A program made the translations under genes and the position numbers. A model generated the notes under the pieces. That model saw only the letters and a program-made list of their open reading frames with translations. It made no database searches and had not been told where the DNA came from. A stretch of 42,164 nt of DNA from a virus, in IMG/VR virus record IMGVR_UViG_3300032893_000122, positions 1 to 42,164 of that record; one strand, 5' to 3'. Below, one piece after another: positions 3,787-42,164 of the stretch (its first letter is position 1; each line of letters opens with the position of its first letter).

Positions 3787-3789
3787 CAT

Positions 3790-29219: not shown

Positions 29220-30734
29220 ATGAACAAGTTCCTTTCTCTCATCTTCGTTTTGGCATCCGCTCTTGGTACGGCACAAGTCGTGTCTCCTCCCGCCCCGCAA
29301 AGCCGTGTAGCTGGACGCTTCGTTGCATCCAACTATGGACAGTGGAGCTTCGCTCCTTATACGATGCCCTCTGGCACAGGGTCGCAGACTTTCACCTTGA
29401 GTAATGCTACGGCAGCACTCCCTGATGGCCGTATCGTGATGCCTTTCTCGACCAATGCTCCTATCAAGGTCGGTACAGAGGTAGTGACTCCCACCGCTGT
29501 AGGATCGGGTTGCATTGTGGGTAACATTGGAGCGGGTGCTTGCGCCATCACGGCGACTTTTGTTCATTCGCACAGCACAGCCGACTATATTAGCTCCGGC
29601 ACATTTGGATTGCAAGAGGCTCTCAACGATGCCCATCTTAGTGGCGGCGGAGCGGTTACGATTGACTCCGCATGGGTATCTCTTGGTGGAACCACAGCCA
29701 TTTACGACGCGGCTGTGGTTCCATCCTCAACCAATATCGAAGATGTACGTGCTGGTATTCCAACTCCTCCAACGGGTGGTATCACTCAACTCACTGGCGA
29801 TGTAAATGCCGGTCCGGGCTCGGGCTCTCAGGCTGCATCAGTCGTGAAGGTTAATGGTCAGCTGATCCCTCTCCTCAAGACCGTTGTGGGCACTGATAGT
29901 GCTGGGCATATCATTGACGCTGATTCAGCGACACTTAGCAATAACACCAATGGTACTGCCGCTGGTCTCTCGGGAACTCCTGCGCTGCCCAATGGTACTA
30001 CGGCTACAACTCAAAGCGTGTCAGACAATAGCACGGATGTTGCGACCGACGCATTCGTTCAGAGCGGGATTAAAGGTGTGCCATTCTGCACTGGTTACAC
30101 ACCGACTAATGGACAAGTTATAACTCTGACCACGGGAAGCTCACCCAATCCATGTTACACGGCGGCTACACCGTCTGGTGGTTCAGGCGGAGCATGGATG
30201 AACATCACCGGCAAAGTCACCGTGTCGGGCTGCACTGTGTCTAATGGCGCTTGTGCGGTTTCTGGAGGCTCCACATCAGCGGTTACGTTCTCCGATATTC
30301 CCAGCACATACAATCGTTTGCAACTTGTCATTTGGGGTCAGGATTCGACGAGCAGCACAGACCATAACCAAATCACGTTTAATAGTGACACAGGGTCGAA
30401 TTATGCATACAATGCGACCTACTCTACCGCTACGAATTCGAGCGCCGGAACACTGCCGGTCAGCACTGCCAGTTCCTGCTATGGTGGTGTCATGAATAAC
30501 GGGGTGGTATCTGAATCCATCATTGACATCCCGTTTTACGCCAACACTTCATTCAAAAAGGCCGCACACGTAGCCAGTGACAGCATTGCAACCATTGCTG
30601 CCGGTTTGGCAAACAACTACGAGTTCGATGTTTCCTGCGGATGGAACAACACCGCAGCAATCACCAGCATCACTTCAACCATCTCAGCTAACGACTATGC
30701 TTCGGGGACATCCTTCGAGTTGTTGGCTGAGTAG
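29220..30734 (+). CDS. Second tail fibre protein with signal peptide
   Basis: This 504-aa protein begins MNKFLSLIFVLASALGTAQV, a Sec signal peptide with cleavage likely near residue 18. It shares a GGITQLTGDVNAGPGSGSQ module (about 180) with the previous fibre, then KTVVGTDSAGHIIDAD. The C-terminal domain (SAVTFSDIPSTYNRLQLVIWG to GTSFELLAE) has the usual end of phage fibre lectin-like domains, so it appears complete. A partial second domain follows in another frame. It is probably a receptor-binding protein; both leaders are intriguing for virion proteins. Confidence 0.65.
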   Translation: MNKFLSLIFVLASALGTAQVVSPPAPQSRVAGRFVASNYGQWSFAPYTMPSGTGSQTFTLSNATAALPDGRIVMPFSTNAPIKVGTEVVTPTAVGSGCIVGNIGAGACAITATFVHSHSTADYISSGTFGLQEALNDAHLSGGGAVTIDSAWVSLGGTTAIYDAAVVPSSTNIEDVRAGIPTPPTGGITQLTGDVNAGPGSGSQAASVVKVNGQLIPLLKTVVGTDSAGHIIDADSATLSNNTNGTAAGLSGTPALPNGTTATTQSVSDNSTDVATDAFVQSGIKGVPFCTGYTPTNGQVITLTTGSSPNPCYTAATPSGGSGGAWMNITGKVTVSGCTVSNGACAVSGGSTSAVTFSDIPSTYNRLQLVIWGQDSTSSTDHNQITFNSDTGSNYAYNATYSTATNSSAGTLPVSTASSCYGGVMNNGVVSESIIDIPFYANTSFKKAAHVASDSIATIAAGLANNYEFDVSCGWNNTAAITSITSTISANDYASGTSFELLAE

Positions 30735-31137
30735 CAGCAGTAATACGATTCCTTGGGCGGTTTGGTTCGTTGAGTTGTCTGGTACGCGCACGCTTGACCA
30801 GTACGCAAGTAGTAACCCAACGGCGGTGGGCGACGGTTTCGGAAATTACCACTTGGCGTTTCCCTCTATCACGCCAACAGCGGGATCGTGGGTGGTGGGT
30901 TTTCAAGGATACTTAGCGGATGATAGTTCGGGCTATGATCCGATGATTCCACAATCAGACCCCGGCTGGAGAGTGCGGAGCAGCAATCGGACGGCAACCA
31001 ATGCGAAAGCTATCATTGTGGAAACTGCAACTACGGCGGCGACTGCCGCAACTACGACACCACCTATTGCGGAAATATGGGGTGGAGCTTTGTCAACAGG
31101 TGCAGCCCCTGCGGCTGTAACTTTTTCAATCAAGTAA
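30697..31137 (+). pseudogene. Frame-shifted tail-fibre C-terminal fragment
   Basis: The credible part of this ORF begins right at the preceding stop (about 30733) in the +1 frame. It encodes the second half of a fibre lectin-like domain: IPWAVWFVELSGTRTLDQYA, then SWVVGFQGYLADDSSG and a C-terminus ending AVTFSIK. Its first half is missing. The nearest ATG (30697) lies inside the previous gene with no ribosome site. It may be the remains of a replaced fibre tip, or it may be joined by frameshifting near 30720-30735. Confidence 0.55.
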
Positions 31138-31148
31138 GAAGGCAAGTT

Positions 31149-31424
31149 ATGCAAAATACGGAACAAGAAAGAGTACCCATGGACGATAGCGCCTTCAAAA
31201 TTTTTGTGGTGGATGCCCTCACAAAAACTGCCGAGACTGTTGGCGAACTAAAAGCGGATATGCATTTGTTACTAGGCAATGGCTCACCGGGTGAGATCGG
31301 TAAGCTCAAGAACAGATTGCGGCTGCTGGAATACTATGCCGCGCTTATTGCCGGGGGCTCTGTCATCGCTGGGTTTATTTTTGGTCACTCTTGGCACGCC
31401 TTAGTGTCGATCTTCGGACAGTAA
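31149..31424 (+). CDS. XhlA-like holin-associated membrane protein
   Basis: This 91-aa protein has an N-terminal amphipathic/coiled-coil region (FKIFVVDALTKTAETVGELKAD) and one C-terminal membrane segment (YYAALIAGGSVIAGFIFGH). That architecture resembles haemolysin XhlA-type proteins found beside holins. It is the last gene of the late plus-strand block. The ATG at 31149 has an AAGG ribosome site; longer reading from 31077 overlaps the fibre fragment. It may be the holin or its helper, but no endolysin lies nearby. Confidence 0.6.
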   Translation: MQNTEQERVPMDDSAFKIFVVDALTKTAETVGELKADMHLLLGNGSPGEIGKLKNRLRLLEYYAALIAGGSVIAGFIFGHSWHALVSIFGQ

Positions 31425-31431
31425 AATTCGG

Positions 31432-31608
31432 CTACAAAAACAAAATACCTATTCCTACAGCCAATAGACTGAGCACTGCGATCCGTAAAATCCAAACATC
31501 CTGTTTGGCAATCGCCCTGCGTTCCGGGGTGTTTTCTCGTGCTTCCATCTCAGCCAACATCTTGAGGTTGCGCCGTAGCCGTGCTCTCTGCCGTTCTCGC
31601 TTCGTCAT
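31432..31608 (-). CDS. Small basic membrane protein
   Basis: This 58-aa protein begins MTKRERQRARLRRNLKMLAEM, a strongly basic helix, and ends in one membrane segment (ILRIAVLSLLAVGIGILFL). The start at 31608 is preferred over 31629 because its ATG forms an ATGA overlap with the upstream gene's stop, a sign of coupled translation. Function unknown. Its stop is 7 bp from that of the convergent plus-strand gene. Confidence 0.65.
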   Translation of the reverse strand: MTKRERQRARLRRNLKMLAEMEARENTPERRAIAKQDVWILRIAVLSLLAVGIGILFL

Positions 31609-31877
31609 AACAAACCCCTTCCTTCCCATGTGGGTTCAAGAATTTTGCCGAACATCATAACTGTGCCAGTATAAGTCGGGTCATCATCCTCAAGTGCGTC
31701 CATCAACGCCTTGATGTCTCGCCGATCCCAGTGGGTTAAGATCGACGGGTTGAATTTCTTAACTACTAACTCGTGCGAGGGATGTGCCTCGTTAAAATCA
31801 GCTAACTGCTTCAGCGTAATCGCCGACCAGTCATGACCGATTGAGGTCTTCTCGCCGGTACCCAAATAGACGATCAT
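31605..31877 (-). CDS. Hypothetical protein
   Basis: This 90-aa protein begins MIVYLGTGEKTSIGHDWSAI, with a GAGGG ribosome site. It has a compact alpha/beta look with an acidic C-terminal half (DRRDIKALMDALEDDDPTY). Reading from 32012 would include the 3' end of the KTSC gene and is rejected. It sits in the middle of a tight minus-strand run (KTSC, this gene, membrane protein). No family is recognised. Confidence 0.6.
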   Translation of the reverse strand: MIVYLGTGEKTSIGHDWSAITLKQLADFNEAHPSHELVVKKFNPSILTHWDRRDIKALMDALEDDDPTYTGTVMMFGKILEPTWEGRGLL

Positions 31878-31896
31878 TTTATCCCTCACAGACGTT

Positions 31897-32130
31897 TCAA
31901 CCCTCACAGACAAACAGCACAGGCTTGGTGCGAATCCAGCGACCGAAGTGTTGACCCACAGACTCAGCCTTGAGCAACCGCTCAAATCCTTGACGACGAC
32001 CCTTGTAGCCATACGTCTTACCGGACGCCATCTTTACAACGATGACACCATCGCGGCTTTTGTACGTCTTAGCTGCGAATCCCACCGCTGCGATGAAGCT
32101 GCTGTCTACGTGCTGTAGTTCGAAGTTCAT
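31897..32130 (-). CDS. KTSC-domain protein
   Basis: This 77-aa protein has the KTSC domain pattern: VDSSFIAAVGFAAKTYKSRD (V-x-S-S...vgYd) then VVKMASGKTYGYKGRRQGFE and LLKAESVGQHFGRWIR (A-x-SxGxxfnxxIr). KTSC domains are short proteins found near phage and mobile-element genes, with unknown function, possibly nucleic-acid binding. The ATG at 32130 follows a TATACT box only 6 nt away, so its mRNA may be leaderless. Confidence 0.8.
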   Translation of the reverse strand: MNFELQHVDSSFIAAVGFAAKTYKSRDGVIVVKMASGKTYGYKGRRQGFERLLKAESVGQHFGRWIRTKPVLFVCEG

Positions 32131-32134
32131 ACTT

Positions 32135-32145
32135 ACAGTATACAC
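32135..32145 (-). promoter_or_regulatory. GTGTATACTGT motif (minus-strand promoter candidate)
   Basis: The 11-bp sequence GTGTATACTGT (minus strand) occurs here and again at 35368-35378, each time just upstream of a minus-strand gene. TATACT resembles a -10 box and GTATAC is a palindrome. The spacing to the KTSC ATG is very short. A shared operator or promoter box is inferred. Confidence 0.5.
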
Positions 32146-32187
32146 GGATCGGGCTGAAATGGGAAGCTTTACCATACAACTTTTGTG

Positions 32188-32967
32188 CTATTCTTCAGCT
32201 TTGTTCGATTTGGGGATGAAGAGAGCGGGGATGCCCTTGTCGATGGGGATGCGAAATTGTCCAAGATAGTCAGGGTCGGTGCGGTGGAGTGTACCCACCC
32301 GGCGCATAGCGGCCTTGCCCTTCCAACGCCCGGTGGGGTCTTTCCCTGAGATTAAACGGTGGAGGTAGCAACCAAACCCCAAGGACTCCCGGTCCTTATT
32401 GGACGTGGCTGTTTGTGACATGGGAGTCGTGTCAGTCTTAGCCGAGCCAATGAGTGTAGCGGCTGCTGCGGAGATTACCCGTTTAACGACCGGACGTGGC
32501 ATATCGAGCATCCGGGCTACTTCCACGAGGTTTCTATATTTCTCAAACAAAATGACGACCTCAGCGGTGATGGGTTCAAGACCGTTCTTGATTACCGATG
32601 CCCTGATTTGGTCAGCACTGGGGTAACCACCACACTGTACAAAGTAACCCAGTTTGGCGATGGCGATCCGGCAAAACTGGGAGCAAACCGTTTGAGTCCT
32701 GCCAAGAATGCCACCGATAGTGTTTTGCGTGGCGAGGAGTAGAAATACACTGAGTAAAACGATTCTTTCCTCGCCGTCCATAAATTTGAGGTAGTTAAGG
32801 AACGCAAAAAAATTGTCTTTGACGAACTCGCTGATGCTGTCGTCGGTCAGTTTATCATTGGTTTCGACAGATAAAGTCACATTGCCATGTAACGCATCTT
32901 CAAGATCGATCTGTAAAGATGCAGTAGCGGTGACGTTATCCCAGTAAGCACTGTCAGGAGCATCCAT
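32188..32967 (-). CDS. Possible HTH regulatory protein
   Basis: This 259-aa protein begins MDAPDSAYWDNVTATASL. The middle holds a hydrophobic helical segment (RIVLLSVFLLLATQNTIGGI), then a helix-turn-helix-like EKYRNLVEVARMLDMPRPVV (about residues 150-170) typical of small DNA-binding proteins. The C-terminal basic region includes GRWKGKAAMRR. An AGGAGG sits only one base from the ATG, so initiation is unusual. It follows the pentamer array directly; the open frame upstream into the array (to 33285) is spurious. Confidence 0.55.
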   Translation of the reverse strand: MDAPDSAYWDNVTATASLQIDLEDALHGNVTLSVETNDKLTDDSISEFVKDNFFAFLNYLKFMDGEERIVLLSVFLLLATQNTIGGILGRTQTVCSQFCRIAIAKLGYFVQCGGYPSADQIRASVIKNGLEPITAEVVILFEKYRNLVEVARMLDMPRPVVKRVISAAAATLIGSAKTDTTPMSQTATSNKDRESLGFGCYLHRLISGKDPTGRWKGKAAMRRVGTLHRTDPDYLGQFRIPIDKGIPALFIPKSNKAEE

Positions 32968-32995
32968 GCCTCCTAATACTAATAAATTAGTTGTC
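32968..32995 (-). promoter_or_regulatory. AT-rich dyad between array and HTH-like gene
   Basis: A short AT-rich spacer separates the pentamer array from the gene at 32967. It contains the dyad ACTAAT-AA-ATTAGT and, on the minus strand, the AGGAGG ribosome site. A promoter or operator is possible, but no clear -35 box is seen. It marks the sharp left edge of the array. Confidence 0.4.
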
Positions 32996-33707
32996 TTGAC
33001 TGACCGTGACGCGACCGCCAGACCAAACCACACCGACCAGAACATAACATGACTCAACTGGACTCGACTCGATTGCCTTGCCATACTGGACGTGACATAC
33101 CGAGACATGGCATAACGGGGCTCGACTGCCATGACCCGACAAGACTGACCGTACCGGGGCACACCGAACCCCGCCAAGACAAACCATGACCTACCGCGAC
33201 TGCCTTGACCTGACTTGACCCACCTGAACCCGACGCAACGCACCGCGACATAACTAGACGCGACAGCCATGACTAGACTCGACATGCCACGCCGTACCTA
33301 GTCTGCCTCGGCTGAACATACCGCGACTAAACGAGCCTTGACTCGACACAACAGGACAAACCCGGACGCGACTCGACTCGACTGCCAAGACTAGACCCAA
33401 CCTGACATACCGTGACCCGACTTGACTCACCGTAACTTACCGGAACATGACTGCCGTGACCCGACATAATATGACTTAACTGAACACACCGCGACTTAAC
33501 ACGACTCGACTGCCAAGCCGTGACTGAACATGGCGCGACGAAACATAACAAGCCTCGACTGCCTCGACTTGACCTGACAAACCTTGACACACCGCGACTC
33601 AACATGACAAGACGAGACACAACATGACGCGACTCGACTCAACGCGACTGCCTTATCGCGACTCAACGGAACAAGACCAGACTCGACCAGACTCACCGTG
33701 ACAAGAC
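32996..33707 (-). repeat. 712-bp pentamer array with TGCC punctuation
   Basis: Hand parsing divides this stretch without remainder into 132 pentamers and 13 tetramers. On the plus strand the units are NNRAC-like; all but two of the 132 end in C, about 95 have A at position 4, and the remainder are mostly NNACC or NNGCC. On the minus strand, along transcription of its neighbours, the unit is G-K-Y-N-N. Nine tetramers are TGCC and one AGCC. Punctuation marks start at 33071, 33124, 33198, 33262, 33301, 33380, 33449, 33508, 33557 and 33646; from 33124 on every interval is 5n+4. A 5-base period rules out coding. The array begins 28 bp from one gene and ends 4 bp from another. Confidence 0.9.
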
Positions 33708-33711
33708 TTTT

Positions 33712-34215
33712 CTATGCCGCTGCCCTTTTCGCCTTCGCTTTCAGTTTGGCTTGAAGCTGAAGCCGGAAATTCTGCGTGGCTGAAAGCAAAGAATTGTAAG
33801 CATCGCCGAGCCCGAGAGCGCAAGCATAACTTTTCGCACGGAGAATTTGATTCTCAATGCGCTTGAATTCCGCCATCAGAAAGTCAGTCTCTTTGCCTTC
33901 TTCCTTTAAGTCTTTCACTTCGACAAAGTGTGGAGCGCGGCGAGGAGCATCCGGGTGAACAACAAAGCGCGGCCTCAGGAACACGGTGTTTTCAACCGTC
34001 ACTGAAATCCGCACCGTTTTAATCAAGTGCTTTGCATGATCCAGCCAATGCCGTTCGGCGGCGGCGGCAAGGTCCCATTCAAATCCGCCCTGAGTGTGAA
34101 GGGCGCTGCGAGGATTCTTGGCTTCATCCACAACGATTTGTGGAGTCAGGAACCCATGCTTTTCTTTGAGTTTCAAGAGCACCTTTTCTACGACTTCGCG
34201 ATTCATCTTCTTCAT
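33712..34215 (-). CDS. Conserved phage protein, LTPQxVVxEA family
   Basis: This 167-aa protein starts MKKMNREVVEKVLLKLKEK with AGGAGA upstream. It has LTPQIVVDEAKNPRSALHTQ and GFEWDLAAAAERHWLDHAKH, the signature (VVeEA-p-SPLH-FeWDd-aA-xxR-xqAR-LI) of a family common in phages and often found beside the gene upstream here. Function is unknown; replication or recombination roles have been considered from neighbourhood only. The C-terminal part is basic (LQLQAKLKAKAKRAAA). The stop abuts the pentamer array. Confidence 0.7.
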   Translation of the reverse strand: MKKMNREVVEKVLLKLKEKHGFLTPQIVVDEAKNPRSALHTQGGFEWDLAAAAERHWLDHAKHLIKTVRISVTVENTVFLRPRFVVHPDAPRRAPHFVEVKDLKEEGKETDFLMAEFKRIENQILRAKSYACALGLGDAYNSLLSATQNFRLQLQAKLKAKAKRAAA

Positions 34216-34264
34216 ATTCTCTCCTGTGTTAGGGGATGGGGCTTTCACCCCACCCGGTTGTTGT

Positions 34265-35062
34265 TTACGCCGTAGCAGCAGATGCTTTCTCTGAACGGAA
34301 GTGGCGGCTACCCAGTTCCTGAGTATACCACGTTAGCATCTCTTCAGACTCTGCATCCCATGGTTGGGCTGCTTCCATAGCTGCGATCTGAGGTTCACGA
34401 CCGCCCTGTGCGGCGATGGTGTCCCACAGCTTTTCATCCTCGTCGCTGGAGAGGAGATGGAACTGACCGAATGTCAGCTTGCCTTTTTCCGGGCGACCAT
34501 CGCCACAGCCGACATAAAGACCAGCGGCCGATAAAAGATTGGCGATAGCCTGTGGGGTCAGAAAGGGACGAATGAAAGTGACATCAAACTCCGCCGCCCA
34601 GTTGGGAATAATGCAGCGAGTGCGAATGTCAGGCGTATGATTCATGTCGCTTGACCGAACCACAGCCATGTAAAGTGCAGGGATGCCAAAAATGCCAACG
34701 TGGCGTCCTTGCACGTAGCATAGCCGTCCGATCTGCGCCTTCTTTGTTCCCGGCAAATCCAAAGCCGCTGTCATCATCGCGCCCTTGAAAGCCGTCGCGT
34801 CGATCCCCAGCAGAGTCGGACCGTCAGGAAGCTGAGTGGCAGATGCACGGAACTCAGCCACCGGATCGTGCTTGAGGCTGGTCTGCTTCTGCGCGGCGTT
34901 CATCCGCCCGGTAGGCATCAGTAATTGATGCTTTGCTTTTTCGGACATCTTGTTCAGAATGATCGGCGAATCACCGAGCACCTTAATGTGGATACTTCCA
35001 GTTTGCACCGTTGCCACCTGAATTTCCGGTGACTCCACGGTCTTGCTCTTTTGTCCTGCCAT
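34265..35062 (-). CDS. Conserved phage protein, SPIILNKMSEKAK family
   Basis: This 265-aa protein starts at 35062 with AGGAGA upstream. Motifs include IKVLGDSPIILNKMSEKAKH (residues about 27-46), LLGIDATAFKGAMMTAALDL (about 85), EFDVTFIRPFLTPQAIANLL and the Gly-rich GLYVGCGDGRPEKGKLTFGQF (about 185-205). This pattern defines a family frequent in phages of Proteobacteria, Actinobacteria and others, lacking a proven role; the Gly-rich loop and pairing with the downstream gene suggest a nucleic-acid function. It is the second gene of the minus block. Confidence 0.75.
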   Translation of the reverse strand: MAGQKSKTVESPEIQVATVQTGSIHIKVLGDSPIILNKMSEKAKHQLLMPTGRMNAAQKQTSLKHDPVAEFRASATQLPDGPTLLGIDATAFKGAMMTAALDLPGTKKAQIGRLCYVQGRHVGIFGIPALYMAVVRSSDMNHTPDIRTRCIIPNWAAEFDVTFIRPFLTPQAIANLLSAAGLYVGCGDGRPEKGKLTFGQFHLLSSDEDEKLWDTIAAQGGREPQIAAMEAAQPWDAESEEMLTWYTQELGSRHFRSEKASAATA

Positions 35063-35112
35063 GACGTTTCTCCTTTTCTGGTTAAGGGGACGGTGACCGC
35101 CGTCCTGCGGTG

Positions 35113-35346
35113 TTACCACGTTGGGCGGCGATGTTTGTAAGCCGCTACGGTCATACCCGCTGCTGCTGCTTGTGCGATACGGGCATCATCGGCGAGATTA
35201 AAACGTGCAGTGTTAAGGACCATACCGTTGGCCTCATCACCCACATATTCACAAGCGATGGGCTCTTCCCAATTGATAACCGATGATCCTTTTGGCAACG
35301 ACCGGGATGCGACATGTACCTGCAATCCAGAACGTGAGTAAATCAT
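35113..35346 (-). CDS. Small hypothetical protein, first in minus block
   Basis: This 77-aa protein begins MIYSRSGLQVHVASRSLPKG with a GGAAAGGAAAGGAAG ribosome site. It has mixed beta/alpha character and ends AAYKHRRPTW. The start at 35391 would cross the candidate promoter box at 35368-35378 and is rejected. As the first gene of the divergent minus-strand block it may be early-expressed. No family is recognised. Confidence 0.6.
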   Translation of the reverse strand: MIYSRSGLQVHVASRSLPKGSSVINWEEPIACEYVGDEANGMVLNTARFNLADDARIAQAAAAGMTVAAYKHRRPTW

Positions 35347-35367
35347 ATACTTCCTTTCCTTTCCATC

Positions 35368-35505
35368 ACAGTATACACCCTCTCGTCTCAATTGTGACAG
35401 TATTATTTCGTAACTAAAGTAACCTCCTCAGGTAACCATCTCAGATTACCCATGTTTAATTTTAGAATACTAAATTTTGTAGTATTATAAATGAGGAGGA
35501 AAATT
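35368..35505. promoter_or_regulatory. Divergent control region with operator-like repeats
   Basis: This AT-rich gap separates divergent genes. It holds the minus-strand box GTGTATACTGT (35368-35378), three GTAAC direct repeats (35410, 35419, 35432), a GGTAA/TTACC dyad (35431-35450), two AGTATTAT copies (35398 and 35481), and the dyad AATACTA-n7-TAGTATT (35466-35486), which overlaps a -10-like TATTAT for the plus strand. A GAGGAGG ribosome site follows. It looks like a lysis/early control switch region bound by the adjacent HTH protein. Confidence 0.55.
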
Positions 35506-35700
35506 ATGCAAAGACCTGAGACCATCGCGGCACACAGGATCATCGCCGCGCACATCAAATCCCACCCCACTAAACCCTACGGCGAGGTCGCCGCCTTTTT
35601 CGGCGTCAGTCGCGCCACAGTCTCACTTGCCGCCAAGGAAGCCGGGATTCCCGACCATCGCCGTGTGTATGAACGAGTGATGGAGGCGGCTAGTGAGTGA
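35506..35700 (+). CDS. Small HTH DNA-binding protein
   Basis: This 64-aa protein has a helix-turn-helix: KPYGEVAAFFGVSRATVSLA (residues about 26-45), with AAKEAGIPDHRR after it. It begins at ATG 35506 with GAGGAGG upstream. It is the first gene of the rightward control block, next to an operator-like dyad, so it may autoregulate. Its stop overlaps the GTG of the next gene. Confidence 0.75.
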   Translation: MQRPETIAAHRIIAAHIKSHPTKPYGEVAAFFGVSRATVSLAAKEAGIPDHRRVYERVMEAASE

Positions 35701-36112
35701 GGTCGATATTCAAACGCCGGGACTCGCCAAGCTCTCCCTGCCTAAAGGCGGCGTGTTGATTTTTGACAAGAGCGACGTGCGCCTCATCCGTTCCATCCTT
35801 GAACATATCAGACCGAAGAGACGGCGCAAGATAGCCGATGGGGCTCTGGCTCGTAGCAGTGATCCCGACACCAGTTTTGCTGCTGCCAGTTCGGTCGATG
35901 CCGCCCGGTGGGAAAAGATCGTCAGGGACGCCATTGCAGCCTTGGGAACGGCCACGTCATGGGAAGTAGCCCAGCATCTCAGTGTTGACCAGTATGGCTC
36001 CATCAGTCCACGGTTCCAACCCCTGTACCAAAAAGGTCTCATCGAGCTTACCGGGGAGAAACGCCCCGGTCCGAACGGAAAAGCGATGCAGGTATGGCGT
36101 TGTGTTGTATAA
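35693..36112 (+). CDS. Winged-helix-like regulatory protein
   Basis: This 139-aa protein starts at a GTG in overlap with the upstream stop. The C-terminal half, KIVRDAIAALGTATSWEVAQ to YGSISPRFQPLYQKGLIELT, is a winged-helix pattern (recognition helix with SISPRFQPL, then wing GEKRPGPNGKAMQVWR). The SDPDTSFAAASSVDAARWEK linker is frequent in phage proteins of this type. A near-consensus -10 box (TATAAT, 36108-36113) overlaps its stop. A fragment of a paralogue occurs at 36748. Confidence 0.7.
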   Translation: MSEVDIQTPGLAKLSLPKGGVLIFDKSDVRLIRSILEHIRPKRRRKIADGALARSSDPDTSFAAASSVDAARWEKIVRDAIAALGTATSWEVAQHLSVDQYGSISPRFQPLYQKGLIELTGEKRPGPNGKAMQVWRCVV

Positions 36113-36113
36113 T
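36108..36113 (+). promoter_or_regulatory. Candidate -10 box before DUF1376-like gene
   Basis: TATAAT, a perfect sigma-70 -10 hexamer, overlaps the stop of the winged-helix gene, about 20 bp before the next ATG. The hexamer 17 bp upstream (GATGCA) is a poor -35. It could drive the repeat-bearing gene at 36134. Confidence 0.4.
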
Positions 36114-36133
36114 GACACTGAGGACGAAGAGTA

Positions 36134-36838
36134 ATGTCCCGTAAAATCAACCCCGATTCTTTACCATGGTTTCCATTCTATGCGGCGGAGTGGAAATACT
36201 CCGCAACTGTCATGAAGATGACCCGTGCTGTATGCCTTCAGCACGAGTGCTGTACATGTTCTGTATGCCTTCAGCACGAGTGCTGTACATGTTCTGTATG
36301 CCTTCAGTACGAGTACAGCACATATTACTTTCCCGAGCTATTGAAATTCTCATTAACATTGGGAAAAAATGGGTCTCCCGCGCCTATAGATAAGATAAGA
36401 AGAAAAGAGATAAAAAGAGAAAATAACTACGTAGTAGCTAATTCTAACTCAACGGGAGAAAATGATCCTGAAAAAGCAGAGGAAAAGGACGAATCCCAAC
36501 CGGAGAGTGCTTGGGTTAAACTCCCCGCCCCGGCGTCTGATGAGATGGAATTTCTCGACGTACCCGACAGTCATCCGTTCAGCTTGGCTCGGTCTAAACA
36601 AGAGCCTGTTGAGGAGCCCGATCCTCTGGATGATCCCTCGCCCATCAAGCCTAAGATGGTTTATAAAGCCGGAGTCGGCATGGTTCCCGCCACCACTAAG
36701 TCCCAGTCTCCCCCCGGTAGAAAGCAAACCCGCCCCTGTTCTCACCGATGTCCATCAGCCCACGAATCAAACCTCTGCGCCAGAAGGGCCTATTGCAATG
36801 GAACGGGCAGAGACGCAAAGGGCAGAGCAACCGCCTGA
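36134..36838 (+). CDS. DUF1376-like protein disrupted by tandem repeats
   Basis: This 234-aa ORF starts MSRKINPDSLPWFPFYAAEW, which matches the N-terminus of the DUF1376-like protein at 37002 (INPQQLPWFAFNVQRW). After YSATVMKMT the family core is missing; instead come copies of an 11-residue Cys-rich repeat, VCLQHECCTCS, encoded by the 33-bp repeat. An acidic, Pro-rich tail follows. From about 36750 the frame overlaps a winged-helix fragment in another frame. It is probably a degraded gene, although the frame stays open. Confidence 0.55.
   Translation: MSRKINPDSLPWFPFYAAEWKYSATVMKMTRAVCLQHECCTCSVCLQHECCTCSVCLQYEYSTYYFPELLKFSLTLGKNGSPAPIDKIRRKEIKRENNYVVANSNSTGENDPEKAEEKDESQPESAWVKLPAPASDEMEFLDVPDSHPFSLARSKQEPVEEPDPLDDPSPIKPKMVYKAGVGMVPATTKSQSPPGRKQTRPCSHRCPSAHESNLCARRAYCNGTGRDAKGRATA
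36228..36316 (+). repeat. 33-bp tandem repeat, 2.7 copies
   Basis: Two identical 33-bp units (36228-36260, 36261-36293) and a diverged partial third (36294-36316) lie in tandem. Each unit contains the hairpin CAGCAC-GA-GTGCTG; in the third copy this dyad is altered. The length is a multiple of both 3 and 11, so it keeps frame and helical phase. It may be a protein-binding array or simple expansion. Confidence 0.85.
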
Positions 36839-36936
36839 TGCGTGTATGGGAGTGTGTTCCCGGTACAGAGCATCTTGACCCAGCCGAAGTGACGGCGTAT
36901 ATTGAGGTTGAGGACGTCAAGTTGAGGCTGGTTTAG
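36748..36936 (+). pseudogene. Winged-helix fragment (paralogue of 35693 gene)
   Basis: The 62-aa frame reads SISPRIKPLRQKGLLQWNGQ and then RLMRVWECV, closely matching the C-terminal winged helix of the 35693 protein (SISPRFQPLYQKGLIELTGE; AMQVWRCVV). The N-terminal two thirds are missing. An extra tail, EVEDVKLRLV, is encoded by the start of a pentamer array. It is followed by a second DUF1376-like gene, so the two-gene cassette seems duplicated and eroded. Confidence 0.65.
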
Positions 36937-36981
36937 TCTCGTTAGGTCAAGTTATGTCACGGTGTGGTTCAGTTCGGTCAA
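36916..36981 (+). repeat. Small pentamer array (GTYNN grammar)
   Basis: Thirteen successive pentamers, interrupted by one extra base at 36966, begin with G and mostly follow G-T-C/T-N-N (such as GTCTC, GTTAG, GTCAA, GTTAT, GTCAC) or G-G-C/T (GGCTG, GGTGT). This is the grammar of the large array read on its minus strand, here on the plus strand. It runs from the 3' end of a coding frame to 20 bp before the next gene. Confidence 0.65.
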
Positions 36982-37001
36982 TATGATAAAGTGGAGGAGT
37001 A

Positions 37002-37397
37002 ATGGACAAACCAGCAAAGATTAACCCGCAACAGCTACCGTGGTTTGCGTTTAATGTACAGCGGTGGCTTTATTCTGGTGACCGGCTCTCAATGACTGCA
37101 ACTCAGCAGGGGGTTTACATTGAGATTATGGTTGCTATGTGGTTGGCAGGTTCATTGCCGACCGATCATATTAAACTGGCGAAAGTGCTCCATGGCTGTG
37201 ACCCAAGGATAGTAAAAAAGTGGTTGGATCAGTACGCCCATCTTATCGCCATCCTTGACACGCCCTGCACCAAGCATGTGTTCACCACCGATCTCAATTG
37301 CCCAAAATGCAAGGAAGCATTCGAGACTCCACGGGCACAGTTTGTGATCCCGAAGATGGCGGAAATCACCGAGTACACGCCGGAGGAGGGGGCATAA
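37002..37397 (+). CDS. DUF1376-like protein
   Basis: This 131-aa protein has a GGAGGAG ribosome site and the start INPQQLPWFAFNVQRWLYSG followed by SMTATQQGVYIEIMVAMWLAG and SLPTDHIKLAKVLHGCDPRIVKKWL. That is the DUF1376 N-terminal pattern (PWFpfy..dWl.dp.v..lt.ee.GaYi.LL...W..gslP.d...la.il), a winged-helix-like domain of phage replication/regulation proteins. It includes a possible zinc knuckle CPKC. It is shorter than the family's usual length. Confidence 0.75.
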   Translation: MDKPAKINPQQLPWFAFNVQRWLYSGDRLSMTATQQGVYIEIMVAMWLAGSLPTDHIKLAKVLHGCDPRIVKKWLDQYAHLIAILDTPCTKHVFTTDLNCPKCKEAFETPRAQFVIPKMAEITEYTPEEGA

Positions 37398-37412
37398 ATT
37401 CTCTGGAGTTTT

Positions 37413-37513
37413 CGCATCCAAATCGCATCCAAATCTCTCTGACCATGCTCTGACCATGCTCTGACCATGCTCTGACCATGCTCTGACCATGCTCTGACCA
37501 TGCTCTGACCATG
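37413..37513 (+). repeat. Nine 11-bp iterons
   Basis: Two copies of CGCATCCAAAT (37413-37434) are followed, after 2 bp, by seven perfect copies of CTCTGACCATG (37437-37513). An 11-bp period places every copy on nearly the same face of DNA. Next comes an A-rich run. Such iterons are typical of replication origins, partition sites or multi-operator arrays. Minus-strand frames through them are by-products of the repeat. Confidence 0.9.
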
Positions 37514-37561
37514 CAAAAAAATGCCCCTTAAGTCGTTTAGAATCAACACGGAATTTTACAC

Positions 37562-37601
37562 ATGACATGACATGATATGATATAACAGTACATGACATGT
37601 T
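37562..37601. repeat. Short ATGAC-type pentamer array
   Basis: Eight pentamers in strict phase (ATGAC, ATGAC, ATGAT, ATGAT, ATAAC, AGTAC, ATGAC, ATGTT) follow the same NNRAY layout as the large array's plus strand. It lies between the iterons and the bidirectional terminator. The rest of the 37398-37770 gap shows no gene; a weak TTGTAG-n17-TTTTAA promoter-like pair occurs after the array. Confidence 0.65.
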
Positions 37602-37690
37602 GTAGCGGCAGCTTCAATCAAGTTTTAAACGGGAGAGATTTTCAACTACCGAGTTCATTAGTATTGGGGACTCATCCTCGGCTTCACCAT

Positions 37691-37736
37691 AAAAAGAACC
37701 CACGATCCTGAATCTCAGGGCCGTGGGTTCTTTTTT
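37691..37736 (+). terminator. Strong bidirectional intrinsic terminator
   Basis: A perfect 14-bp stem, AAAAAGAACCCACG (37691-37704) with CGTGGGTTCTTTTT, encloses a smaller stem CCTG-AATCT-CAGG. T6 follows on the right and A5 stands on the left, so termination can occur in both directions. It isolates the control block from the late block that starts at 37771. Confidence 0.9.
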
Positions 37737-37770
37737 GCTATGCAGCGTATTAGTAGGGGGAGAGACCTCA

Positions 37771-38010
37771 ATGCTGCTGAAGTTGAAAAATGCAATCGAA
37801 GGCACATATCTGCCGCCCGGTGTGCAGATTATATACATGCTTGGACGACCGATGGTGACGGAAAAGATCGGAGCCACCGAGTCTTATGTGATGCTTGAGC
37901 TTCATATCTTCCCGCCTGAGCTTGTAGACCCGCTGGAGTATGCCTTCGAGATGGACAAAGCTCTGGCGGAGTTAGCTAAAGTAAGGGCGGCTTTGAATAC
38001 ACAGATATGA
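37771..38010 (+). CDS. Hypothetical protein before small terminase
   Basis: This 79-aa protein begins MLLKLKNAIEGTYLPPGVQI, with a GGGGGAGAGA ribosome site right behind the terminator; the longer frame from 37723 would start inside the terminator hairpin. It is a small alpha/beta protein with acidic C-terminal helix (YAFEMDKALAELAKVRAAL). It overlaps the terminase start by 4 bp. No family is recognised. Confidence 0.65.
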   Translation: MLLKLKNAIEGTYLPPGVQIIYMLGRPMVTEKIGATESYVMLELHIFPPELVDPLEYAFEMDKALAELAKVRAALNTQI

Positions 38011-38504
38011 GAGCGAAACAAAAACTATTTCTGGCTGAATACCTTAAAGACTTGGACGGACCCCGAGCGGCGATTGCTGCCGGTTACTCGGCTAAGTCCG
38101 CCGAGTCCTATGCTTGTCAGCTTTTAGCCAAACCCGAAATCGCTAAGATACTCGCCGATAAAGCTAAAAAGAAACTCGAAAAGGCTGAAATAAGTTCCGA
38201 TTGGGTGCTAAGCAAACTAAAGTTACTAGCCGAATACGATCCACGCCGTTTGTTCGATGCCAACGGGAATCCCATTCCCGTTCAACAACTCGATGAATCT
38301 ACCGCTCAAGCTATAACCGGGATTGAAACCACAGCTAAGGGTGGGCTCAAATATAGGACGAGCGACCGCATCAAGGCGCTTGAACTTCTTGGTAAATACT
38401 TCAAATTGTTTACCGACCAAGTGGAGCTAAGCCAAAAGGAACCGCTTAAGGTTGTTGTACGCCATATCGCATGGAAGAAGGATAAGGATGCCGCAAGCGA
38501 GTAA
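38007..38504 (+). CDS. terS: Terminase small subunit
   Basis: This 165-aa protein has the Terminase_2 pattern: KQKLFLAEYLKDLDGPRAAI (helix), AAGYSAKSAESYACQLLAKP (DNA-binding HTH region) and EIAKILADKAKKKLEKAEIS. The C-terminal half, WVLSKLKLLAEYDPRRLFDA and later IKALELLGKYFKLF, is standard for this family. It binds phage DNA at packaging initiation with the large subunit gene about 1.3 kb on. Length is normal. Confidence 0.88.
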   Translation: MRAKQKLFLAEYLKDLDGPRAAIAAGYSAKSAESYACQLLAKPEIAKILADKAKKKLEKAEISSDWVLSKLKLLAEYDPRRLFDANGNPIPVQQLDESTAQAITGIETTAKGGLKYRTSDRIKALELLGKYFKLFTDQVELSQKEPLKVVVRHIAWKKDKDAASE

Positions 38505-38946
38505 ACAGCTTCCCGACGCTCCTGAGCCCCAGCAACCACCCTTGTACGGGACGATCCCGTCCGAGCCCGAACAGAAGTTCATACCTCCTCAGTTTCCAGT
38601 GAATCGCCCGGACAGATTTGGTCAGGCTCTTACTTTGGGAGATATGCTAACTCGCGGCCTTGATGCTTACTCCACACGGCGTATGTTGGACAGAGGCAAC
38701 AAAGAACTGGTCTTGCCTCATGCTTTGGCTGATAGTAAGTGGGGTATGCCGCTTTACTCTGAAGGTATCGCCGGACTTACAGCATTGGGACAACATGAGT
38801 TAGTGCGGCATGGTCATCCTAAGTTGGGACATCTTTTGACTATGGGCAATATCGGATATGACTTACCGTTGGGTATTAACAACATGATGCTTCCTAATCG
38901 CAACAAGCCGGTGACTAGAATACCTAAACCACCAGTGGGGAGATAA
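38488..38946 (+). CDS. Hypothetical protein, Pro-rich N-terminus
   Basis: This 152-aa protein overlaps the terminase end and begins MPQASKQLPDAPEPQQPP. After a Pro/Gln-rich 45-residue lead it has a helical part with TLGDMLTRGLDAYSTRRMLD and GIAGLTALGQHELVRHGHPK, then LGHLLTMGNIGYDLPLGINN. I do not recognise a domain. It may be a virion component, similar in style to the ejection proteins. The ATG at 38488 follows AAGGA; a TTG at 38452 is less likely. Confidence 0.6.
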   Translation: MPQASKQLPDAPEPQQPPLYGTIPSEPEQKFIPPQFPVNRPDRFGQALTLGDMLTRGLDAYSTRRMLDRGNKELVLPHALADSKWGMPLYSEGIAGLTALGQHELVRHGHPKLGHLLTMGNIGYDLPLGINNMMLPNRNKPVTRIPKPPVGR

Positions 38947-38949
38947 GAC

Positions 38950-39138
38950 ATGCCGAGCAAATCTAAAGCGCAAAGACGTTACTTCGGATGGCTTGAACAT
39001 TCCCCGGAAGCCGCTAATGAGCGTAAGGAATCGGGTATGACCCGCAAAGAGATGTCGGACTTCGCTTCCACGCCGGATAAGGGTTTGCCTGAAACGGTTG
39101 GAGACAAGCTGACTAAGGGGCTGAGAAAGAAGAAATAG
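38950..39138 (+). CDS. DUF3008-like small protein
   Basis: This 62-aa basic protein begins MPSKSKAQRRYFGWLEHSPE and includes GMTRKEMSDFASTPDKGLPE. That matches a family of small proteins of the type MPAKSKAQQRFMG...mskkqakdFAstkhkgLPe (DUF3008), common in phages and bacteria. Its function is unknown. It starts 3 bp after the preceding stop, within the packaging block. Confidence 0.8.
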   Translation: MPSKSKAQRRYFGWLEHSPEAANERKESGMTRKEMSDFASTPDKGLPETVGDKLTKGLRKKK

Positions 39139-39142
39139 GGAA

Positions 39143-39247
39143 ATGGCAGTCGTGGTAATTGCGCTCTTTGCGCTCATTGTCGGTGTTGCATTGGGCGTTC
39201 TTATTGCGTTGGCATTGGTCTCTAATGCTGTGAGACTACCGTGGTAA
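39143..39247 (+). CDS. 34-aa single-span membrane protein
   Basis: This short ORF encodes MAVVVIALFALIVGVALGVL plus IALALVSNAVRLPW, an almost entirely hydrophobic helix. It starts 4 bp after the previous stop and is followed by a spacer with a weak CTCAAC/GTTGAG hairpin. It could be a small holin, pinholin or membrane anchor. The placement and strong hydrophobicity favour a real gene, though its size makes this uncertain. Confidence 0.5.
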   Translation: MAVVVIALFALIVGVALGVLIALALVSNAVRLPW

Positions 39248-39301
39248 CTCCACGTCTCAACTTTAAAGGTGTTGAGCCGCCTTTCTTAAGGAGTATAACA
39301 C

Positions 39302-39493
39302 ATGAGCAATAATTGGAAAACAACGACAGCCGGGGTACTGAGTGCAATTATAGCCACGACCGGTCCCGTCACGGCTTATCTAGCTACGATTCATTCCCCT
39401 AAAGCCGCCACGGTCACTGGAATCGTCACATTGGTTGGAGCCTTGGCTCGGGTTTACATCGGACTTATTCAAACCGATGCTCAGCCCGGTTAA
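39302..39493 (+). CDS. Holin-like two-span membrane protein
   Basis: This 63-aa protein has an AAGGAG ribosome site and two membrane segments: residues about 8-28 (TAGVLSAIIATTGPVTAYLA) and about 35-57 (ATVTGIVTLVGALARVYIGL). Similar short MxxWKTTxAGIL proteins near packaging genes of phages are annotated as holin-like. It may set lysis timing with a yet unidentified endolysin. Confidence 0.6.
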   Translation: MSNNWKTTTAGVLSAIIATTGPVTAYLATIHSPKAATVTGIVTLVGALARVYIGLIQTDAQPG

Positions 39494-39519
39494 GTAAGTA
39501 TTAACTTAATGGAGAGACC

Positions 39520-39828
39520 ATGATAGAAATTCCACTTGAAGTGTTCGTCGAGAATGCCAAGTTGCCTGAGGGATATAAGTTTTACGACTTCTCCAACGGG
39601 CAGCATTTTTGTCCCGTTCCTAATGGTGAATATCTCTCAACGGTTCAATTAGCCGTTGAAAGGGTTATTCCACCCACCGGGTATGTGGCGACTCTGCAAT
39701 TTAGCTACCTCACGACTTTTGAAAAGTCCCCACCTATGGTGGATGTTTGTGATTTTGCTCAAGAAATTGAGAAACTCATAGCCCATCTGGAAGAGCGCGT
39801 CAAGAAAGACGGATACTGGGTGGGATAA
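39520..39828 (+). CDS. Hypothetical protein before large terminase
   Basis: This 102-aa protein begins MIEIPLEVFVENAKLPEGYK with a GGAGAGA ribosome site. It is mixed alpha/beta, ending in a helical EIEKLIAHLEERVKKDGYWV. Its stop overlaps the terminase ATG (TAATG), so the two are translationally coupled. No family is recognised. Confidence 0.65.
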   Translation: MIEIPLEVFVENAKLPEGYKFYDFSNGQHFCPVPNGEYLSTVQLAVERVIPPTGYVATLQFSYLTTFEKSPPMVDVCDFAQEIEKLIAHLEERVKKDGYWVG

Positions 39829-41540
39829 TGCCAGAGTTCGGTCTTGACTTACTCCCCAAACAATCGGAGCTATACGACGAGCTAAAGTATGGCACCCGTC
39901 CGGTTATAGGCATCTATGGCGGCAGAGGCAGTTCCAAGTCCTCAGGAATAGATAGAGTCTTACTCAGCCTCATGTATGAGGAGCCGGGGCTCTTATGTTG
40001 CGTCGTAATGCGTAACTACGATCAAGTCAAGAAATATCACATAGATACAATCAAGCAAGAGTTTCCATGGTTGCAAGACGATATAGTCTCCACCATGCCT
40101 TCCCATCTGGACATCGGCACATCCAGAATGGATTTCTCCTACGCCGAATCCCTCGATGATGTCAAGCGCCGTTTCATGAGCGGCAACTATGCTATCATCG
40201 CCATTGACCAAGCCGAACAATTCACCGCCGAAGAGATACGCGAGATGCGTAGAGCCAACCGCATCAAAGGCGGAAAGATGGCTAGGATCGTGCTCAGCTT
40301 CAACATGCGTGGAGCCTCGATCCAAGAGCTTAAGAAATGGTTTGTTCTTCACGAAGTGAACAAGGATGAAGACCCCAACGATTATGTCGGCTATAAATGG
40401 AACCCGTGGGATAACGTTTATTGGTGTCTTGATGCTTTGCAGAAAGATGGATATTCCATCGAGGAATACTATAGCTGGACTGACCAGCAACGGATGGACT
40501 ACGCCGCGAACAACGGTCCTTATACGCATGGCTTGTCCGTAGACGATGAAGTTATCCGCCAAGCGGATTGGTATGGCTCATGGGAATCCATCGAAGGCAC
40601 ATATTTCGCTAACTCCTTTGATTTGGAATCCACACGCATTACTCCGGGCTTGGTTGAGGCTATGCGTAAACCATGGGCTACGCATTGGATAAGTGGCGAC
40701 TGGGGTAAATCCCACTGGACGGCTATTCAATGGCATTACCGTGTTACTCTGTCCCCATCCGAGATAGCTAGAACTTTAGGATGGACGGTTCAGAACCCGT
40801 TGAATGTTACCGTGACTTATCGCGAGATGTATGTATGCGATTTGGAGTCTCCTGAAGTCGCTAAGTACATCGTGGATTGTACACCCACTAAGTTATTTCC
40901 CGGAGATAAACGCTTGGACGAACGATCTCTTATCAAGGCGTTCTATTTAGGCAGAGACGCATTCGCCGACGAGGATTCACCGCTCACCACGGCCATACAG
41001 ATCGGCAAGGTGATGCGTGAATTCAAGATGCCCACACCGGAAAGAGCCGATGATGACCGTATTGGTGGTTATACCTTGATGTCATCCTTGCTCAGAGGCA
41101 CCAAAGGGCATGGCTGGGTGACGGGTGAATTCAAGGTGCCTTCTTCGGAGCGGCGTAACTTAACCGTGGAGAAGTTAGACCAGCCGTTCCAAGTGAATGA
41201 CGTTTGGTTAATATCAAACGAATGTGTAGAACTACTTAAGTCCATCCCGTTGCTGATGCGTGATCCTAAGAAGCGCGAGGATGTGCTTAAGACGGATAAA
41301 TCTCTGGCTAAGATCGAGATGGACTCCACCGATGCGGCGAGATATGGTTTGAAATCCATGTTAAACCCGCGTAAGAAGACCGACGAGATGAAGTTTCAGG
41401 AACAGATGTCGGAATTAGTGGGACAACCCGCTAAGCAAACTTTGTTGGCGTTCAAACATGCGGCGAAGACCAAGGGACCTAAATCCCGTTGGACACAATC
41501 CTTGCCGCCTTCGTGGCGATCTAATGTAAAGGAGAAATAG
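39828..41540 (+). CDS. terL: Terminase large subunit
   Basis: This 570-aa protein is the packaging motor and nuclease. The Walker A-like P-loop is GIYGGRGSSKSSG (residues about 27-39) and the Walker B region is AIIAIDQAEQF (about 122), where DQ-AEQ replaces the more usual DE. A coupling-like motif NMRG is at about 163. The nuclease domain begins at HWISGDWGKSHWTA (about 286, first acidic residue), with further acidic residues near DLESPE (about 343) and DSTDAARYGL (about 503). Length and order are typical of podoviral terminases. Confidence 0.92.
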   Translation: MPEFGLDLLPKQSELYDELKYGTRPVIGIYGGRGSSKSSGIDRVLLSLMYEEPGLLCCVVMRNYDQVKKYHIDTIKQEFPWLQDDIVSTMPSHLDIGTSRMDFSYAESLDDVKRRFMSGNYAIIAIDQAEQFTAEEIREMRRANRIKGGKMARIVLSFNMRGASIQELKKWFVLHEVNKDEDPNDYVGYKWNPWDNVYWCLDALQKDGYSIEEYYSWTDQQRMDYAANNGPYTHGLSVDDEVIRQADWYGSWESIEGTYFANSFDLESTRITPGLVEAMRKPWATHWISGDWGKSHWTAIQWHYRVTLSPSEIARTLGWTVQNPLNVTVTYREMYVCDLESPEVAKYIVDCTPTKLFPGDKRLDERSLIKAFYLGRDAFADEDSPLTTAIQIGKVMREFKMPTPERADDDRIGGYTLMSSLLRGTKGHGWVTGEFKVPSSERRNLTVEKLDQPFQVNDVWLISNECVELLKSIPLLMRDPKKREDVLKTDKSLAKIEMDSTDAARYGLKSMLNPRKKTDEMKFQEQMSELVGQPAKQTLLAFKHAAKTKGPKSRWTQSLPPSWRSNVKEK

Positions 41541-41542
41541 TG

Positions 41543-41658
41543 ATGTTTTAGCTCGTAAGGCGAATAAGATTAAGAATGATGCTACTCTCGAAGAAATAAC
41601 TAAAGTTGGAAAGTTCTATGAGAAATTCCAGTTGAGTTGGAAGGGGAATTCAAAATGA
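41543..41658 (+). pseudogene. Frame-shifted small gene after terminase
   Basis: An ATG at 41543 follows AAGGAG (8-nt spacing) but hits a stop after two codons (ATG TTT TAG). One extra T in the T4 run would open a frame of 38 codons, LARKANKIKNDATLEEITKV then GKFYEKFQLSWKGNSK, whose TGA overlaps the next ATG (ATGA). The ribosome site at one end and the coupled stop at the other strongly suggest a real gene with a one-base deletion, an assembly error, or frameshifting. Confidence 0.55.
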
Positions 41659-42047
41659 GTTGGTTTCGTAATATCTTCGGATTCGACATTCTGGAGCAGC
41701 AGATAACTCTGTTGAAGGATACTCTGGCTGTTGAACGTGCAACCTTCGGTGAGCAAACGGATTATCTCCGAGCCCAACTGGCTCAGAAGCAACGCCGCAT
41801 CGACGAACTACAGGAAGCATTGATAGGGGTCAAAACCCCACCGGCTCCTCGTGTTATTCGGAAGAAAGATTCCAATCCATGGGGCAATGTTGTTCCCTTG
41901 GGATGGGATGCATTCCGTGAGCACAGACGGTCGTTTCCCGCTCCTGAGCCAGAGCCTGAAAAGGGCATCTACGAGTTCGAACCACCTAAACCCCCACAAC
42001 CCGTCCCTGAGACGGCTGCAATAGTAAAGGAAGAAGATGATGGGTAG
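41655..42047 (+). CDS. Coiled-coil protein upstream of GIY-YIG gene
   Basis: This 130-aa protein begins MSWFRNIFGFDILEQQITLL with an AAGGGG ribosome site; a TTG at 41637 is less likely. Residues 12-60 form a clear coiled coil (LKDTLAVERATFGEQTDYLR; LRAQLAQKQRRIDELQEALI). The rest is Pro-rich and acidic. Its stop overlaps the GIY-YIG start. A virion or packaging accessory role is possible; no family is known to me. Confidence 0.65.
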   Translation: MSWFRNIFGFDILEQQITLLKDTLAVERATFGEQTDYLRAQLAQKQRRIDELQEALIGVKTPPAPRVIRKKDSNPWGNVVPLGWDAFREHRRSFPAPEPEPEKGIYEFEPPKPPQPVPETAAIVKEEDDG

Positions 42048-42164
42048 GGGTTATATCTACCTAATCCGAAACTTAGTGAATGGTAAGGGCTATGTTGGTC
42101 AGACCATTAAGAAGGTAAAGTACAGATTCAGAGCACACATATGGGATGCACAGTGTGGTAGTAA
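42023..42164. repeat. Terminal repeat, right copy
   Basis: These 142 bases repeat positions 1-142 with one synonymous change at 42038. They contain the end of the coiled-coil gene and the start of the GIY-YIG gene, which runs off the contig end. They show that the molecule is circular or permuted. Confidence 0.9.
42040..42164 (+). CDS. GIY-YIG endonuclease, 5' part (duplicate of start)
   Basis: This is the beginning of the same gene annotated at 18-596, cut by the contig end. It starts at ATG 42040 inside the upstream stop region (overlap of 8 bp) and reads MGRGYIYLIRNLVNGKGYVG in frame. It should not be counted as an extra gene. Confidence 0.85.
   Translation, partial: MGRGYIYLIRNLVNGKGYVGQTIKKVKYRFRAHIWDAQCGS

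Follow-up and report, generated by a model that had tools for sequence, protein, structure and literature searches.

A candidate detached guide array in an uncultivated phage that carries a VIPR locus

Results

A vipr gene, an accessory gene and a guide bank on the minus strand

The window, by which we mean the whole stretch of DNA analysed here, comprises 42,164 bases and forms a complete record in IMG/VR. Its end and its start (42023-42164 and 1-142) are both matched by another contig, L003, with an overlap of about 142 bases, which makes a circular or circularly permuted genome probable; compared letter for letter, the end segments 1-142 and 42023-42164 of the window are not identical.

A gene for a 265-aa protein lies on the minus strand at 34265-35062. 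A profile built from 28 of its relatives matched one solved protein, PDB 36pp_D, the 'SUSP1 Vipr protein' (E 2.3e-28), and a Pfam search returned no Vipr family. Its AF2 model (pLDDT 93) was compared with a fold library that ends in April 2026 and whose rows do not contain 36pp; the best matches were the RAMP proteins Csm3, Csm5 and Cmr, with Csm3 aligning over 156 residues (VIA Z 9.3, rmsd 4.0). Judged by profile homology and modelled fold, the product of this gene, vipr, is a Vipr-family RAMP.

VIPR (Viral Interference Programmable Repeat) is an RNA-guided system used by phages, described in 2026 as a possible forerunner of CRISPR, with Escherichia phage SUSP1 as the type system (PMC13142463; bioRxiv 2026.04.26.720920). 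According to the main text of PMC13142463, it consists of the Vipr RAMP, usually one accessory gene, and guide RNAs (vrRNAs) in which YNNGG is repeated 9-16 times. DNA is recognised through the NN dinucleotides, one base being skipped per unit, and the natural targets are rival phages and satellites.

The window holds counterparts of the other two parts, both in the orientation of vipr. An accessory gene, vap (33712-34248, minus strand; 178 aa), starts at 34248 (GTG) or further in and matches phrog_15946 (E 9.5e-14). Homologs of vap occur in 89 of 92 Vipr loci, the window's own contig counted. The confident vap model had no PDB match at E <= 0.001 by Foldseek, and its sequence profile had no match below E 0.45. 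A few bases 3' of the vap stop codon begins the main guide bank (about 32985-33711, minus strand), which we parsed into 135 pentamer units of the form G[T/G]Y-NN. The triplets are GTC (70), GTT (25), GGT (21), GGC (9), GCC (5) and others (5), and all 16 dinucleotides occur at the NN positions. The main segments hold 12, 17, 9, 11, 13, 16, 12, 14, 8 and 10 units; some shorter pieces also occur, and the runs score 16.8-77.2 bits. Guides of about 8-17 units are separated mostly by the tetramer GGCA, which breaks the frame. The 130 NN dinucleotides of the bank fit positions 1 and 2 of the codons of the phage's own genes (+13.2 bits over background), better than the antisense fit by 14.4 bits and than the other codon phases by 33 or more; this is the expected trace of a code that skips the wobble base, and plain purine bias could give the same.

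CRISPR arrays are built of identical repeats, roughly 21 bp or more in length, with unique spacers between them. No CRISPR-type repeats were found at this locus: the TRF list gives period 5 with fixed triplets and no longer repeat series at the arrays. Rfam and ARAGORN returned no match on the sources tried. The next gene 3' of the bank (32188-32967, minus strand) has a weak match to sigma-70 region 4 (Pfam E 0.0011, below cutoff) and no homolog at the other Vipr loci, which places it outside the conserved locus. From the sequence, we conclude that the window carries a whole VIPR system on its minus strand, comprising Vipr, the accessory gene and the guide bank.

A second array with the grammar of the bank

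A further array of 11-13 G[T/G]YNN units, which we call array S, lies at 36916-36980 on the plus strand, opposite to vipr and 1.9 kb upstream of it. Eleven units are in frame (GTC.AA GTT.GA GGC.TG GTT.TA GTC.TC GTT.AG GTC.AA GTT.AT GTC.AC GGT.GT GGT.TC). They are followed by AGT.TC GGT.CA or, alternatively, by three units with the frame shifted by 1, and GGTTG at 36906-36910 is a possible outer unit. The original prediction, made from the letters of the window, had described 13 plus-strand units at 36916-36981 with GTC, GTT and GG classes mixed, and this description holds, with 11 units in frame and the 3' units off-consensus or shifted. There is no GGCR boundary in array S. The vrRNAs of the SUSP1 clade are described in the main text of PMC13142463 as having an invariable 3' tail after the repeat tract; by eye, we found no 3' tail common to array S and the bank, though VIPR types may not all be alike in this respect.

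We scored G[T/G]Y-NN units along the window with a log-odds model trained on the bank only, and for the null we shuffled the remainder of the window 200 times with dinucleotides preserved, keeping the top-scoring run of each shuffle. Array S (36916-36970) reached 42.8 bits, and the best runs of the shuffles had a mean of 15.0 and a maximum of 22.2 bits (n=200). This genome-wide comparison with shuffled sequence, which had been proposed along with the prediction, therefore places array S well above all 200 shuffles, and we conclude that the array is real and shares the grammar of the bank. A motif-free scan of the window for 5-nt periodicity ranked the bank, 36914-36978 and 37559-37623 among its top segments, with 36914-36978 first outside the bank. 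The next rank, 20939-20990, lies in a coding region and is absent from the 28 listed grammar runs; it was dropped as an array. Another run under the grammar, at 1788-1822, scored 16.7 bits, inside the shuffle range.

The same grammar had also been claimed for a second small array at 37562-37601, an imperfect ACATG repeat. A period-5 repeat does exist here (TRF: 8 copies, 80% matches), and that much of the claim stands. Its membership in the same element does not: 37562-37596 scored 15.1 bits, what the best run of a shuffle scores on average (15 bits are reached in 78 of 200 shuffles), and AT makes up almost all of its variable dinucleotides, against the full 16 employed in the bank. We therefore rejected it as a VIPR guide. 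It looks like an ordinary short repeat that fits the grammar by chance, and the recurrence at three sites, on which the prediction had leaned, is reduced to two. Shortly 5' of this repeat, 37437-37514 holds seven perfect copies of CTCTGACCATG, each with an ATG, and at 37699-37735 on the plus strand a sequence resembles a strong intrinsic terminator (AAGAACCCACG ... CGTGGGTTCTTTTTT), judged by eye.

Flanks of array S

Array S stops about 21 nt before a plus-strand gene at 37002-37397, in agreement with the predicted gap of some 20 bp. This gene is DUF1376 or primosomal-like (phrog_3992, E 8.3e-6; DUF1376, E 6.9e-5, below cutoff). On the other side, a sigma-70-like promoter match, TTGACC-17-TATATT (36875-36903, plus strand), agrees with the consensus at 10 of 12 bases, and transcription from it would be expected to start at about 36910, at the first unit of the array. 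The window has two plus-strand sites with 10/12 agreement and a 17-nt spacer and no such site on the minus strand, the consensus being that of E. coli.

The array also overlaps the end of a winged-helix fragment (36748-36936, plus strand) that resembles the C-terminal part of the protein encoded at 35693-36112 (53% over 36 residues by blastp, E 1e-13), and the fragment takes its last codons from the first 21 nt of array S (GTC AAG TTG AGG CTG GTT TAG). The region appears as a duplication, with the plus-strand pair 35693-36112 and 36134-36838 corresponding to the fragment 36748-36936 and the gene at 37002; both halves are similar at the protein level. Alignment of the two junctions shows that the upstream pair lacks the array, GTATAATGACACTGAGGAC lying immediately 5' of GAAGAGTAATG, and that in the downstream copy array S lies between GTATATTGAGGTTGAGGAC and GAGGAGTAATG. 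The downstream junction has 38 more extra bases, which carry TTGACC. On this alignment, array S was possibly inserted, or lost from the other paralogous copy. The idea that the array had invaded the winged-helix fragment gains some support from the paralogous junction without an array, but no empty site was found in a homologous genome. The proposed check of homologous genomes for presence or absence came down to the window's only near-identical contig, which is 100% identical over 29828-42164, array S included. Elsewhere within the 36134-36838 frame, 36228-36314 holds 2.6 copies of a 33-bp unit (98% matches), with palindromic-looking GCACGAGTGC cores.

Arrays beside Vipr homologs in other phages

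Viral contigs were searched with a pattern of eight RACNN units, which matched at least 120 stretches, and many of the matches listed are long arrays with three positions fixed and two variable. An iterated profile started from the 34265-35062 protein found 36 ORFs in 131 loci plus the window. Among the matches listed, 32 of 120 pattern-found loci carry a Vipr-family ORF (near-identical contig pairs counted separately); among the other 88 are perfect (TTAAC)n runs, and also loci whose sequence ends near the match. Near-perfect TTAAC runs occur in L016, L041, L071 and L107, related low-GC contigs in which the array has a GC of about 0.27; the letters themselves were inspected in L016 and L041. 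No Vipr-family match was found at any of these four (0/4), so they look like plain microsatellites.

Searching by protein only, with six long-form Vipr queries, gave the best 80 of 397 viral relatives and 19 in genomes. Runs of at least 20 bits are present in 70 of 79 viral loci (from the best 80 of 397, own contig out) and 13 of 19 genome loci, and in none of 66 control contigs. At 25 bits or more the counts are 52/79 (again from the best 80 of 397) and 9/19; after shuffling, 1 of the 79 viral loci reaches 20 bits and 0 reach 25. An earlier scoring with a drop-off rule had given 53/80 viral loci (own contig in), 4/12 genome loci and 0/37 controls. In the 91 loci L162-L252, arrays near vipr lie on its strand in 55 loci and on the opposite strand in 1, downstream of vipr in 52 and upstream in 9; in the roughly 8 kb examined on each side, no array was seen beyond 4 kb from vipr. 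Close junctions between runs in these loci show a frame offset of 4 in 205 of 208 cases, a count in which offset 0 is under-represented because such runs merge. The junction tetramers are GGCG (134), GTCG (26) and GGCA (19), so that GGCG or GGCA makes up 153/205.

Two named phages served as positive controls under the same scoring model as the window. Mycobacterium phage Donkeykong has five GGCNN runs of 9-12 units directly upstream of its Vipr homolog, gp49, and in Escherichia phage wV8 GGTNN runs of 29.4 and 25.8 bits flank the Vipr homolog on either side. The Donkeykong bank (L289:3531-3820) lies beneath the annotated hypothetical protein gp48 (3480-3866), and this CDS may for that reason be a misannotation.

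A different arrangement was seen in another contig (L030:928-1760, minus strand), where RACNN blocks beside a Vipr homolog are separated by six spacer copies, five of them of about 47 nt. The spacers can be folded as a tRNA-like minihelix, with a 7-bp acceptor-type stem and a T-arm GGTTCGATTCC and without an anticodon arm; three copies were folded, one of them better than all shuffles, and ARAGORN and Rfam return nothing for them. From the modelled fold, they are possibly tRNA-type processing sites between guides. The main text of PMC13142463 names hammerhead-interspersed arrays but no spacers of this tRNA-like form.

Variation and exchange of guides

Two near-identical contigs from another Vipr group, with GACNN units (L058 and L082), differ in vipr at 5 of 549 bases. 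When their two flanking arrays are aligned from the 5' end, the framework has changed at none of 103 positions and NN at 44 of 68. In a second set of contigs (L195, L196 and L197), the vipr-vap DNA is about 99% identical; some guides are common to them and others differ whole, and guides therefore seem to be exchanged as units.

Search for targets

Array S and bank guides 2, 6 and 9 (4 of 12 guides) were compared with viral contigs as 1-nt-skip, 8-unit cores with extensions, and nothing notable was found. Array S and those bank guides that have at least 8 units likewise found no target in the window or the collected loci with skips of 0-3. For 348 guides from all loci, skips of 0-2 gave no excess over shuffled guides among the collected loci; with a 1-nt skip, 18/348 guides and 17/348 shuffled guides had matches. 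For array S by itself, the codon model that fits the bank is not favoured.

Discussion

We think it very probable that array S is a detached VIPR guide gene, most likely expressed separately, in a phage with its own VIPR system. This interpretation draws on the shared grammar, the homology and fold of Vipr, the linkage of Vipr, array and vap, the punctuation of the bank, the promoter-like match, and the paralogous junction that lacks the array. Vipr (34265-35062) would coat guide RNAs built of G[U/G]Y-NN repeats and hold the conserved trinucleotides, with the NN dinucleotides jointly specifying a target in double-stranded DNA through the reading NNxNNx. The bank (32985-33711) would be a series of tandem guides, with the GGCA tetramers resetting the 5-nt frame from one guide to the next. 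Array S would be transcribed from its own candidate promoter, in the leader of the replication-type gene at 37002, and its guide would be supplied to Vipr in trans, independently of expression of the VIPR operon, and could silence a rival phage or satellite. We infer transcription, binding by Vipr, a 1-nt-skip target code for this type, and purpose; the purpose, silencing a rival, is taken over from the main text of PMC13142463, no target having been found for the guides searched. The original prediction had left the choice between a functional and a replicating element. Of these, the functional element is supported by the unit structure of VIPR guides and by the Vipr encoded in the same genome; the arrays look like guides, and nothing suggests self-copying.

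More tentatively, VIPR guides may leave the bank as cassettes, each a promoter with one guide, that insert in gene leaders and act in trans with Vipr. GGCR would then be the signal delimiting the guides of the bank, and could mark points of excision or exchange. We regard this as possible and rather doubtful.

The alternative that survives best treats array S as a relic: having been copied or moved out of the bank, the guide would have ceased to work and would now be mere leader sequence of the 37002 gene. Its overlap with the end of the broken winged-helix fragment, with no GGCR boundary, would suit such a history, as would the off-consensus AGT unit and the 1-nt frame slip at its 3' end and the lack of detached guides in the 91 related loci, within about 8 kb on each side. 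Nevertheless, 11 units in a row keep the framework unbroken (42.8 bits), and the array starts at a promoter-like site with good spacing; we consider decay unlikely.

Could the arrays instead be binding sites of another protein or RNA, such as TRAP-like (G/U)AGNN sites, iterons or a partition site, that lie near a RAMP gene by chance? TRAP sites, (G/U)AGNN, do have a 3+2 pentamer layout. Against this explanation, the arrays track Vipr homologs, with 70/79 viral loci (best 80 of 397, own contig out) against 0/66 controls, and they occur in named phages as well; moreover, guides with this layout have been demonstrated experimentally for VIPR (main text of PMC13142463). We dropped TRAP-like sites, a centromere or origin iteron, a Rho-utilisation site and a microsatellite as candidates because the arrays adjoin one protein family that matches a solved Vipr, and chance proximity to the RAMP gene seems highly improbable to us. 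Plain degenerate microsatellites produced by slippage, which would suit the 37562 repeat and the perfect (TTAAC)n runs found by pattern in L016, L041 and L054, where no Vipr link was shown, are equally improbable as an account of the arrays, since slippage would produce uniform units and here, even between near-identical phages, three of the five positions stay fixed and the other two vary freely, and since it leaves the Vipr and vap linkage and the constant 4-nt punctuation unexplained.

With array S read as a detached guide, the window adds to VIPR a complete locus from an uncultivated phage and a candidate for a guide outside the bank. Together with its relatives it gives a measured grammar of a punctuated guide bank, with offset 4 at 205/208 junctions in the relatives, and it shows that the phrog_15946 accessory family nearly always accompanies this Vipr group. 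How guides are gained, exchanged and delimited without Cas1 and Cas2 is testable through L195, L196 and L197 and the mycobacteriophages with the frame-offset layout.

Among known systems, the RAMP effectors of Class 1 CRISPR-Cas (Csm3/Cas7) provide the structural parallel, the predicted Vipr model resembling Csm3; the window locus differs in having no CRISPR-type repeats and guide units of 5 nt. Donkeykong and wV8 are closer, with guide runs of the same frame beside a Vipr homolog, and in Donkeykong the guides end in GGCAG and are joined mostly at offset 4 (3/4 joins), as in the window. Unlike the window, these two phages have GGC or GGT as the fixed triplet, and in Donkeykong an annotated CDS covers the guides, which are upstream of vipr. 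With the SUSP1 system, as given in the main text of PMC13142463, the window has in common a phage-encoded Vipr RAMP with an adjoining accessory gene and guides of about 9-16 pentamer units (8-17 in the window) in which a triplet is fixed and a dinucleotide is free. The fixed triplet is mostly GTC or GTT in the window, with some GGT and GGC, and GGY in the VIPR of that text. The window also differs from SUSP1 in having one tight bank with 4-nt punctuation and no space for a long 3' tail, and in having one guide detached, on the other strand. Seven VIPR types are distinguished in the main text, some with 'a related consensus', 'staggered arrays with overlapping vrRNAs' or hammerhead-interspersed arrays, and the 'related consensus' and 'staggered arrays' types may already cover these differences. 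Judged against that main text, the detached guide and the GGCR punctuation may be new details.
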